In this document: positions 1,507 to 8,651 of the stretch, piece by piece
Numbering within the stretch: the first letter of the stretch is position 1
How the letters are laid out: each line of letters opens with the position of its first letter
DNA from: Pleurocapsa sp. MO_226.B13
GTDB lineage: Bacteria; Cyanobacteriota; Cyanobacteriia; Cyanobacteriales; Xenococcaceae
Direction of reading: 5' to 3'
Length of the DNA: 15,510 bases
Assembly: GCA_030064795.1 (NCBI GenBank)
Contig: JASJEI010000247.1
Coordinates: 1-15,510 of the forward strand
The notes under the pieces: model-generated
What the model was told of the DNA's origin: nothing
The model's database searches: none
Seen by the model: only the letters and a program-made list of their open reading frames with translations
Made by a program: the position numbers and the translations under genes

Positions 1507-1598
1507 ACAGTTTTAACTGGGGACTAATTGGGGATATTATATAAACAACCCAATTAATTCCCTTTCAAGAAATCCCCCAAACCCTTACTATATATGTA

Positions 1599-1672
1599 TC
1601 GGAGCGGCGGGATTTGAACCCACGACCCCCACTACCCCAAAGTGGTACGCTACCAAGCTGCGCTACGCCCCG
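1599..1672 (-). tRNA. trnP-GGG: tRNA-Pro, anticodon GGG
   Basis: Read on the minus strand from 1672 to 1599, it folds as a 74-nt cloverleaf. The acceptor stem is CGGGGCG with CGCTCCG, including one G-U pair. The D arm contains AGCTTGGTAGC. The anticodon stem CCACT/AGTGG closes the loop TTGGGGT, giving anticodon GGG. The T arm contains GGTTCAAATCC. The discriminator base is A and CCA is not encoded. It lies between the IS4 and ISL3 remnants. If the CAST-type end at 2490 still bounds a larger element, this tRNA would be inside it, which would be unusual cargo. Confidence 0.95.
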
Positions 1673-1742
1673 TTTTCACAAGTAAATATCATAGCATTGT
1701 TTTGTGCTGATAGAACAAATAATTTGGAAATCTAGTGAATAA

Positions 1743-2234
1743 AGTTATACTCGCCGTCTCCGTGATGCTCAAGGATTAAAAACTGGAGAGAAGAAAACCA
1801 ATCAGCCCCTACCTAAAGTTTTTGAACCGAAAAAATCTCTATTTACGGTACGTCGTGCGGTGGGGCTGATTTTAAGCAAACCAGCTGAACAAAGTGACTC
1901 TGATGCTGAAGCGATCGCTCTGCTCAAACAACAACATCCCAATCTAAATCTGGCGATTGAATTAGCTCAAAGTTTTGCCGATTTAGTTCGCCAAAAGCAG
2001 TCAGACAAAATAGAGGAGTGGTATGAGCGTGCAGAGTCTAGTCAAATCAAAGCTTTTATTGGTTTTGCTAAAAGCCTCAAAGAAGATTGGGCAGCCGTTA
2101 AAAATGGAGTTACTCTTTCTTGGAGTAATGGGCAAGTGGAGGGTCAAATCAATCGTCTCAAGATGCTCAAACGACAGATGTATGGTCGCGCTAGTCACGA
2201 GCTACTCAAGAAGCGGTTTTTATGTAATGTTTAA
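1743..2234 (+). pseudogene. ISL3-family transposase, C-terminal fragment
   Basis: An open frame from 1743 (just after TAA at 1740-1742) to TAA at 2232-2234 encodes the C-terminal part of an ISL3-type DDE transposase. It includes SFADLVRQKQSDKIEEWYER, a middle helix region, and the family signature LSWSNGQVEGQINRLKMLKR followed by MYGRASHELLKKRF near the natural C-terminus. The Glu in GQVEGQINRLK is the last residue of the DDE triad. The upstream zinc-binding and first catalytic parts are missing: homology starts abruptly near 1743 in the stretch RRLRDAQGLKTGE. A GTG at 1860 is not a credible native start. This is a 5'-truncated, non-functional remnant lying directly inside the CAST-type end at 2404-2490, so it may have landed in, or helped erode, that element. 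Confidence 0.85.
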
Positions 2235-2368
2235 TTCGTGGGAAGTTAAGTTCGAGAACTCCCGCAATTCAAGAATTGGACTCTTTTGGTGAATACTGAA
2301 TCGGAGCTCTAGCTTTTGATGCTGTTGCTAGAACGCGATCGCCGACTAAAGACGACAACAAAATGAAA

Positions 2369-2393
2369 TTTGAAAGAATCGATCGGTCGTAGG
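2369..2393 (+). ncRNA. Candidate delocalised CAST homing guide (repeat tail plus 17-nt spacer) against tRNA-Asn
   Basis: The sequence TTTGAAAG (2369-2376) is followed by AATCGATCGGTCGTAGG (2377-2393). The last 17 nt match the minus strand of the neighbouring tRNA-Asn gene (2549 down to 2533) at 16 of 17 positions, and the match stops exactly at both ends. GAAAG, often TTGAAAG, is the 3' end of the CRISPR repeat in type V-K CAST systems. Their delocalised homing guides carry roughly 17-nt spacers against tRNA genes. The target is preceded by TGTT, which fits the NGTN PAM preferred by Cas12k. The protospacer start is 59 bp from the transposon end at 2490, close to the approximately 60-66 bp known for ShCAST. 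The single mismatch is at spacer position 8. The upstream repeat part is degenerate, so whether it is still expressed and used is unknown. Confidence 0.65.
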
Positions 2394-2403
2394 AATTTGA
2401 TTC

Positions 2404-2490
2404 GACGACAAATAATTTGTTATTGATGATAACTATATTGTTAAAATGACACTAATTTGTTACCGATGACAAATAATTAGTTACTGTACA
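2404..2490 (-). mobile_element. Terminus of a Tn7-like (type V-K CAST-like) transposon with four TnsB-type repeats
   Basis: Read inward on the minus strand from 2490, the DNA starts TGTACA. It continues with GTAACTAATTATTTGTCATC (2484-2465), a near copy about 21 bp later (2463-2445), a more diverged copy (2444-2425), and ATAACAAATTATTTGTCGTC (2423-2404). A weaker fifth copy may lie at 2351-2372. This matches the architecture of Scytonema CAST ends as I remember them: TGTACAGTGACA and then tandem GACAAATTATNTGTC-like sites bound by TnsB. The flank 2491-2495 (AGAAT) would be the 5-bp target duplication. The end is 22 bp from the 3' end of tRNA-Asn, the usual neighbourhood for such elements. No transposition or Cas12k gene lies inside the window, and I cannot tell left from right end. 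Confidence 0.78.
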
Positions 2491-2512: not shown

Positions 2513-2584
2513 CTCCCCAGGTAGGATTTGAACCTACGACCAATCGATTAACAGTCGACCGCTCTGCCACTGAGCTACTGAGGA
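2513..2584 (-). tRNA. trnN-GTT: tRNA-Asn, anticodon GTT
   Basis: The minus-strand sequence from 2584 to 2513 folds as a 72-nt tRNA. The acceptor stem is TCCTCAG/CTGGGGA with a T-G pair. The D arm contains AGCTCAGTGGCAGAGC. The anticodon stem GTCGA/TCGAT closes the loop CTGTTAA, giving anticodon GTT. The T arm contains GGTTCAAATCC. The discriminator is G and no CCA is encoded. Its anticodon-to-T-stem portion (2533-2549) is the probable target of the homing-guide-like sequence at 2377-2393, and the transposon end lies just downstream of its 3' end. The tRNA itself looks intact. Confidence 0.96.
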
Positions 2585-7414: not shown

Positions 7415-8651
7415 ATGAGACACGTTGAAAGACATATAGTTAAGCAAAACAATCCTATTTGGCAACAAATAGATTATTTATGCTTTTTATCAAAAAATCT
7501 TTACAACCATGCTAACTATCTCATCCGTCAATCCTATATTATGGAGGGAGTTTATTTAGGATTCAACCAAATTGATCATCAAGTAAAAAAAAACTACTGA
7601 CTACCAAGCTTTACCGCGAAAAGTAAGCCAGCAAGTATTAAGGATATTAGATAAAAACTGGAAATCATTTTTTGAAGCCAATCGAGCCTATCAAAAATGT
7701 CCTGCTAAATTTACAGCCAGACCCAAATTACCCAAATACAAACATAAAACTAAAGGGCGCAACCTTCTGGTCTATACTATTCAAGCCATCAGCAAGCCTT
7801 GGTTAAAAAAAGGGATGGTCAAACTATCTGGTATGGAAACGATCGTTCCCACCAAAGCCAAAAACATCATCAGCGCGAGAATAGTTCCTCAAGTCGGTCA
7901 ATACGTCATTGAAATCATTTACGAACAAAACGAACATTACACTGTCAACAATCCCAATGCATTAGCAGCCATAGATCTTGGTATAAATAATTTAGCAGCT
8001 TTAACATCAAACCAAACAGGATTCGTTCCCATTCTGGTTAACGGGAGACCGCTAAAGAGTCTGAATCAATACTACAATAAGACAAAAGCCAAGCTGCAAT
8101 CGGAACTTCCAGAGCGACAACTAACATCCAATCGTCTTAAAAGATTAACCGCAAAACGCAATAACCAAGTCGATACCTACTTACATCAAGCTAGTAGATG
8201 GATCGTCAACCATTTAGACCAACATGGCATTGGTAAATTGATTATTGGCAAAAATCCTTTATGGAAGCAGAAAATTAATACAGGCAAAAAGAACAATCAA
8301 TCTTTTGTTTCTATTCCTCACGCTCGTTTCGTCGAGATGTTGATTTACAAAGGACAAATCAAAGGAATTAAGGTAATTTGCTCTGAAGAAAGTTATACAT
8401 CATTAGCTAGTTTTCTTCACCTAGATTCAATTCCCGTCTATGGTAGCGATGAAGCCAAAGAAACTAAGTTTAGTGGTTATCGCCAAAGTAGAGGAATGTA
8501 TAAGCTCAAAGGGGAAGAAACTAGAATTAATGCGGATGTTAATGGAAGTTATAACATTATGCGAAAAGTAGTCCCAACAGTCTTTAGCCAAGGGATAGAG
8601 GGCGTTGTAGTTCGTCCCATCAGGATTACTCCTGGTCAAGCTAATCATTAG
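7415..8651 (+). pseudogene. tnpB: TnpB (OrfB) of an IS200/IS605-type element, frameshifted in a run of nine A
   Basis: TnpB proteins are RNA-guided DNA nucleases related to Cas12. The N-terminus (MRHVERHIVKQNNPIWQQID, then LCFLSKNLYNHANYLIRQSY) is typical. The frame stops at TGA 7598-7600 just after A9 at 7585-7593; one A fewer would join it to the downstream frame and give a protein of about 411 residues, the normal length. RuvC motifs in the second part are AIDLGINNLAAL with catalytic Asp (codon 7974-7976), VICSEESYTSLASF with Glu (about 8385-8390), and INADVNGSYNIMRK with Asp (8535-8537). The usual Glu position reads LIIGKNPLWKQ and has no Glu, and there is no CxxC zinc finger. This is the rearranged-RuvC type. 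No tnpA is adjacent. Slippage on the A-run might still give some full-length product. Confidence 0.85.

Follow-up and report, generated by a model that had tools for sequence, protein, structure and literature searches.

The question raised by this locus is whether a short sequence that nearly repeats part of a neighbouring tRNA-Asn gene is the homing guide of a V-K CAST and, if so, what has become of the element that carried it. The window, i.e., the whole 15,510-nt stretch of DNA that was analysed, is best explained, with a probability of roughly 0.9, by a homing V-K CAST that left a solo end with its repeat and guide at tRNA-Asn after the loss of its body, most likely an element of a clade with two tracrRNAs, whose guide in the window is now most likely inactive.

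In the window, the motif TTTGAAAG (2369–2376) is immediately followed by the 17-nt guide AATCGATCGGTCGTAGG (2377–2393), which agrees with its target in tRNA-Asn, AATCGATTGGTCGTAGG (minus strand, 2549–2533), at 16 of 17 positions. The sole mismatch is guide position 8, and beyond the 17-mer the match ceases, with no agreement at the 12 flanking positions compared on either side. The four nucleotides 5' of the target are TGTT, and the PAM, GTT, is the anticodon of tRNA-Asn; since an anticodon cannot drift, its use as a PAM would fix the target. TGTACA occurs once in the window (2485–2490), and this transposon end lies 59 nt from the PAM. The sequence-only reading had proposed just such a guide, with one mismatch and with identity ending at both edges, a fitting PAM and a transposon end 59 nt beyond it, and the letters, coordinates, PAM and distance all proved exact.

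No tRNA-Asn variant in the 27 family genomes compared (see below), among which two forms are known (15/27 and 12/27), accounts for the mismatch at position 8. As a sign of decay the mismatch was ruled out, given that one to three mismatches are also present in the guides of L025, L027, L036 and L038, which are elements with long cas12k frames. The 812 nt of element-side sequence were compared with every 17-mer of both tRNAs on both strands: none of 300 dinucleotide shuffles reached 16/17, their best value of 15/17 was observed in two, and the analytic chance expectation was 5.6e-4, a figure that leaves the further requirements of GAAAG, PAM, distance and left end out of account. Random recurrence of the match, a caveat raised earlier, was not observed either: the 24-nt pattern TTGAAAGAAYCGATYGGTCGTAGG, with up to two mismatches, was found in none of 388 genomes of the class, a sample without G006, G401 and G403, relatives later found to carry such a guide.

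The left end was recognised by a profile compiled from 17 rows of V-K left ends beside tRNAs other than tRNA-Asn (one element supplied two of the rows), which matched the window at 2428–2490 with 48.7 bits (E 3.4e-15) and indicated a weaker partial site at 2403–2425 (E 0.004). The same profile gave no match up to E 10 in 28 control stretches upstream of tRNAs, and a best E of 0.48 in 26 control stretches 600–800 nt downstream of tRNAs (two of them short).

As set out in part of one published account (PMC9938897), the left end of a V-K CAST usually lies beside a tRNA pointing toward that end and carries inside it a truncated repeat (R*) with a 17-nt anchor spacer, homing uses a GTN PAM with 46–82 nt from PAM to end, and the normal position of the guide is some 100 nt in from the left end; parts of PMC11656645 and PMC12719977 also treat the delocalised crRNA of V-K CASTs. 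The window has a tRNA oriented toward the end, a GTN PAM, a distance within 46–82 nt, a tRNA-matching 17-nt spacer after a truncated repeat ending in GAAAG, and a V-K left end with TnsB-type repeats. It differs from the published CASTs in being without cas12k, a CRISPR array or a significant tracrRNA, as well as in its diverged type of repeat and its one guide mismatch. Guide, PAM, distance, left end and the use of the same site by relatives are all directly apparent in the DNA, and they support the interpretation of a delocalised V-K CAST homing guide at a tRNA. The proposal of tRNA homing by such guides is therefore in agreement with the published layout, with the left-end profile and with homologous guides in relatives, and the homing unit itself is an already known layout. 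The features of the locus are collected in Table 1.

Table 1. Features of the V-K CAST relic beside tRNA-Asn and of its surroundings (window coordinates).
Feature	Position	Strand	Basis
Conserved tRNA-Pro locus (tRNA 1599–1672) joined to the relic	1515–1743	-	tRNA call, homology; junction near 1743/1744
Truncated ISL3-family transposase, in place of the element body	1744–2234	+	profile match, homology to relatives' copies
Stretch between ISL3 fragment and R*; decayed tracr2 possible, not established	2236–2368	+	anchored alignment suggestive, other tests not significant
Truncated CRISPR repeat R* ATGAAATTTGAAAG, 5' limit not defined	2363–2376	+	sequence; homologous R* in L006, L081, L083, L136
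17-nt homing guide (anchor spacer), 16/17 to tRNA-Asn	2377–2393	+	sequence match, shuffle test
V-K CAST left end	2428–2490	-	profile match E 3.4e-15
TGTACA terminus of the element	2485–2490	.	sequence
tRNA-Asn (GTT), attachment site	2513–2584	-	tRNA call
Protospacer within tRNA-Asn	2533–2549	-	17-mer match
GTT PAM (anticodon)	2550–2552	-	sequence

The site was compared across the 27 genomes of the GTDB family of Waterburya, 15 of which have a Cas12k above the curated cut-off. Each of the 27 genomes has one tRNA-Asn match. The window itself comes from a Pleurocapsales-like cyanobacterium: the protein encoded beside its tRNA-Asn shows 71–79% identity to that of the six relatives ranking highest on this measure (Pleurocapsa, Myxosarcina, Waterburya and others). 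A left end (E up to 2.4e-4, at most 120 nt from tRNA-Asn) was detected in 12/27 genomes and a guide was kept in 4/27, none being found at the remaining eight of the 12 loci; weaker left-end traces in L118, L122, L126 and L129 (E 0.02–0.9) were left out of this count. The homing claim also held up against these relatives: three of the four guides, with one mismatch in G006 (L006/L140) and in G403 (L081/L128) and two in G401:C138 (L136), are the same guide at the same place as in the window, and they track their own tRNA variant. The G006 and G401 guides follow the variant AACCGATT, and those of G403 and of the window the other form. The fourth guide, in G399 (L139), is directed at another target within tRNA-Asn (its first 12 bases match, with five mismatches overall). 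The solo left ends of the family resemble that of the window in position and in a body that is missing or broken, and in L136 R* and guide have likewise been kept, next to a fragment of cas12k; the eight loci at which no guide was found differ from the window in this respect. tRNA-Asn is thus a recurrent attachment site with many dead ends.

Among the relatives closest to the window's left end are elements with two tracrRNA paralogues, in which the order of components is cas12k, tracr1, CRISPR array, tracr2 and then directly R* and the homing guide; both the two tracrRNA copies and the adjacency of tracr2, R* and guide can be read off the relatives' sequences. The spacing between the 3' end of the tracrRNA and GAAAG was measured in the distinct units with both a detected tracrRNA and a guide matching a tRNA: it was 11–44 nt in nine and 206–1049 nt in 28, values that are about 100 nt too long where the tracrRNA matched in its first half only (e.g., L027, L043, L053, L055). 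The nine close units come from G396, G398, G414, G004, G006, G405, G403 and G399 and, outside the family, from G159. At the tRNA-Pro of G401 (L083, 890–1965) the distance is 1114 nt, with a transposase gene inserted between tracr2 and R*, which splits what is supposed below to be a natural single guide. Two tracrRNA copies were found in L035, L041, L046, L054, L073 (the first copy in two pieces) and L103, and one copy in L006, L040, L070 and L083, some of which are at contig ends; in L040 and L083 cas12k is broken and no first copy follows it. In L040 (G396:C22, 212–1512), the broken cas12k is followed by a tracr2-type tracrRNA and a homing guide with no CRISPR array between them, perhaps as a result of deletion.

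Similar arrangements occur in G159 (L144), in which the end of the tracrRNA forms a perfect 8-bp hairpin with the repeat, and in L143 (G166:C1, 1730–2060), which has a second tracrRNA, with the repeat-like GAATTGAAAG after it, and a V-K left end; for L143, no tRNA was found within the 5.1 kb examined and no target match in the flank. As a separate observation, G405:C1 holds two V-K CAST copies with equal Cas12k scores (L036 and L045), one at tRNA-Thr with a guide (two mismatches) and the other near a tRNA-Gly gene, with no guide match found; the latter is perhaps a jump by the second pathway.

Those two-tracrRNA elements that have cas12k fall together in the Cas12k tree with a support of 1.00 (L035, L041, L073, L040, L081, L082 and L083, plus L042, in which no tracrRNA was seen). 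A long uninterrupted cas12k frame is present in L035 only; L081 has one stop, and the rest are partial, some by contig ends. The tracrRNA tree separates the four tracr1 copies long enough to pass the filter (1.00) from the nine tracr2 copies (0.83), each set forming its own group, from which the duplication seems to be older than the elements of this clade. The two copies of L103 are neighbours of each other (0.98), and likewise those of L104 (0.99), which suggests duplications of separate origin.

Since MAFFT alignments of the tracr2 tails leave the R* halves unaligned, the pairing of tracr2 and R* was tested by arm swapping and not by column covariation. In eight elements, the duplex between the own tracr2 3' arm and the own R* had a mean of -4.36 kcal/mol compared to -2.20 over all permutations, and 73/40320 permutations were as good as the own pairing. 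Without G006, which has the best pairing (-13.6), the values were -3.04 and -1.88, with 73/5040 as good. Own pairing was weak (-0.8 to -2.3 kcal/mol) in four of the eight elements, one R* prefers a foreign arm, and single folds join arm and R* in 5/8. Tail folds compared with shuffles were clear in L041 (z -2.7) and L006 (z -2.4), less so in L081 (-1.7) and not at all in L073 (0.0).

The anti-repeat of the G403 tracr1 pairs with four array repeats at -6.7 to -6.8 kcal/mol; with the R* of the clade it gave +1.4 to -3.1, and -4.0 or better in none of 11 cases (eight with an adjacent tracr2, plus the G401 tRNA-Pro locus, L136 and the window, the last at -0.4). Against the same anti-repeat, 20 of the 28 distant-guide units reached -4.0 or better, and the other eight, mostly from lineages whose own tracrRNA differs, ranged from -0.4 to -3.1. 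The R* of G159 does fit a tracr1-type anti-repeat (-7.0), and a poor fit to tracr1 therefore characterises the clade without extending to every natural fusion. As a set, the homing repeats of the clade fit their own tracr2 better than swapped ones, and fit tracr1 poorly.

On these grounds, we consider it reasonably probable that in a Pleurocapsales V-K clade, and apparently separately in G159 and G166, the tracrRNA was duplicated and its labour divided, with tracr1 assigned to the array and tracr2 acting in cis as a natural single guide for homing, and that the relic in the window is what remains of an element of this kind. tracr2, R* and guide would then be one RNA used by Cas12k for homing, and tracr1 with the array crRNAs would serve other targets. 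The closeness of tracr2 and guide might instead be incidental, the two being processed apart and pairing in trans as usual, with the second tracrRNA as a decaying duplicate. The weak own pairings in half of the elements and the foreign arm that pairs better are in line with this, as are the incomplete cas12k genes of several of these elements, some cut by contig ends. However, the tracr2 copies keep both sequence and structure and form their own group, the tracrRNA-guide distances fall in two separate groups, own arms beat swapped ones with or without G006, and the apparently separate G159 case has its perfect 8-bp hairpin, so that we regard an incidental arrangement as unlikely.

For a natural single guide, a precedent exists in the long-form tracrRNA of Cas9, which serves Cas9 self-regulation; the relatives' fusion would be alike in uniting tracrRNA and guide in one natural RNA, and its role would be transposon homing. 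The engineered single guide RNA of ShCAST reportedly puts tracrRNA, a short loop, the tail of the repeat and the spacer on one molecule. The tracr2-R*-guide loci of the relatives can be read in the same order as this engineered molecule (part of PMC9876797), but they are natural and seen only with a homing spacer, and several of the elements have in addition a separate tracr1 beside the CRISPR array. In the parts of PMC9938897, PMC11406308, PMC11656645, PMC10293859, PMC12719977 and PMC9876797 that were covered, one tracrRNA with a separate truncated repeat-spacer is described, or the texts are silent. None of the titles or abstract beginnings searched, a set outside which Saito 2021, Rybarski 2021 and Hsieh and Peters 2021 lie, pointed to V-K CASTs with a second tracrRNA or a natural single guide, and the second tracrRNA may already be published.

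With regard to the window itself, all eight pre-marked clade rows (seven elements) are among the top 10 of 24 left ends ranked by identity to its own, the other two being those of G166 and G159. Against an assignment by left end, L136, which was not pre-marked, ranks only 19th of 24; its cas12k fragment is 79% identical, in line with the clade, to which it probably belongs. The left-end tree joins the window to two clade members with a modest support of 0.85, and both its left end and its R* are of the clade's type, an assignment drawn from some 66 nt of left end plus one short repeat. Judged from end and repeat, the element of the window is likely to have belonged to the clade that carries a second tracrRNA in cis with its homing guide. 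Its repeat, which had been taken as merely degenerate, is probably not the product of decay alone, as it resembles the repeat type of that clade, with the guide beside its own second tracrRNA.

A remnant of tracr2 was sought between the ISL3 fragment and R* (2236–2368). Neither a profile search nor a covariance model was significant for this stretch, the local alignment score equalled the 95% point of shuffles, and the fold of R* with its upstream sequence showed no hairpin (z +0.5). Anchored alignment to eight reference tails (that of G398 not cut at its guide) was matched by 11/1000 shuffles for the whole stretch, with G403 as the best match, and by 52, 66 and 406 of 1000 for shorter stretches. 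As only the whole-stretch anchored alignment is suggestive, we do not claim a tracrRNA remnant here, and since tracr2 is not recognisable in the window, the guide is most likely inactive.

The body of the element is missing as well. No cas12k was found in the window by tblastn, no tracrRNA by profile, no array-like direct repeats at 1450–2700, no second TGTACA in the window, and no tnsB, tnsC or tniQ Pfam families among the subset of window ORFs scanned. The window has one transposon end only; a candidate second end near 1703–1730 was rejected, as this stretch is conserved tRNA-Pro flank. The body of a complete element would lie beyond the window, and elsewhere in the genome there could be the remainder of this element or a further CAST. 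In place of the body stands the ISL3 transposase fragment, which covers profile positions 113–238 of 240. Homology to the relatives' ISL3 copies begins at 1743–1747, and homology to their tRNA-Pro flank ends at the latest at 1743. tRNA-Pro and tRNA-Asn are 0.84 kb apart in the window, compared to 0.9–3.8 Mb along the contig, less on a circle, in G404, G405, G407, G408 and G412, the five relatives with both tRNAs on one large contig. The two tRNAs were joined at the relic by a rearrangement or, conceivably, by an assembly error.

What the window holds is thus most likely a solo, dead transposon end, and this reading follows from the missing body, not from the guide. Of the fossil suggestion in the sequence-only reading, the conclusion stands, but not the ground that the guide is close to the integration point, nor, probably, that of a degenerate repeat; since V-K guides normally sit some 100 nt in from the left end (part of PMC9938897), closeness is no fossil sign. 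As further contents of the window, broken DDE transposase pieces lie on the far side of tRNA-Pro (712–1448; the DDE_Tnp_1 match at 1149–1445 is weak, just below the family cut-off), and the region 7415–8651 holds an IS605-type OrfB/TnpB gene, with OrfB_IS605 and Cas12f1-like TNB domains at 7815–8651, and a short ORF (7415–7600) upstream of it.

If the protein steps followed the known V-K mechanism, the guide RNA, consisting of truncated repeat and 17-nt spacer, would have been loaded on Cas12k, which would have bound the tRNA gene after the anticodon GTT as PAM and directed TnsB, TnsC and TniQ to insert the element with its left end nearest the tRNA. The body would have been lost later, through or together with a rearrangement at the truncated ISL3 copy that also brought the tRNA-Pro locus alongside, and the solo left end with repeat and guide would have remained.

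It is improbable that the guide still works in trans, i.e., that it is transcribed and used by the Cas12k and tracrRNA of a different CAST of its genome. The near-intact state of guide and repeat core and the several Cas12k loci often present in relatives speak for it; nevertheless, the window R* barely pairs with the tracr1 anti-repeat of relatives when compared with array repeats, neither a significant tracrRNA nor an upstream hairpin accompanies the guide, and the position-8 mismatch is not explained by any family tRNA variant. Somewhat less credible still is the retention of the solo left end by target immunity, whereby bound TnsB would shield tRNA-Asn from new insertions: ends without a detected guide at eight of the 12 family loci with ends would suit it, but these ends have decayed very unequally (profile E 1e-18 to 2e-4, with weaker traces beyond), which is what an absence of selection would give and therefore counts against it. 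Finally, integrases do duplicate pieces of tRNA genes, but such duplications usually take the tRNA 3' end, and coincidence, or the copying of a tRNA piece by an integrase or an island at the tRNA, can practically be dismissed for an internal 17-mer that is bounded by GAAAG, unmatched in 300 shuffles, accompanied by a left end and homologous to relatives' guides next to a tracrRNA.

The fossil end in the window is a further V-K homing site and illustrates how frequently V-K elements die at tRNA-Asn, leaving an end and sometimes a guide. If the division of labour between two tracrRNAs is true, the two transposition pathways would use separate RNAs, homing and jumping being split at the level of the tracrRNA, and a single guide RNA for RNA-guided transposition would have arisen in nature. 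It would then be possible to test the choice of pathway by V-K elements through RNA sequencing and reconstitution, and the tracr2-R*-guide loci would offer natural short single-guide scaffolds.
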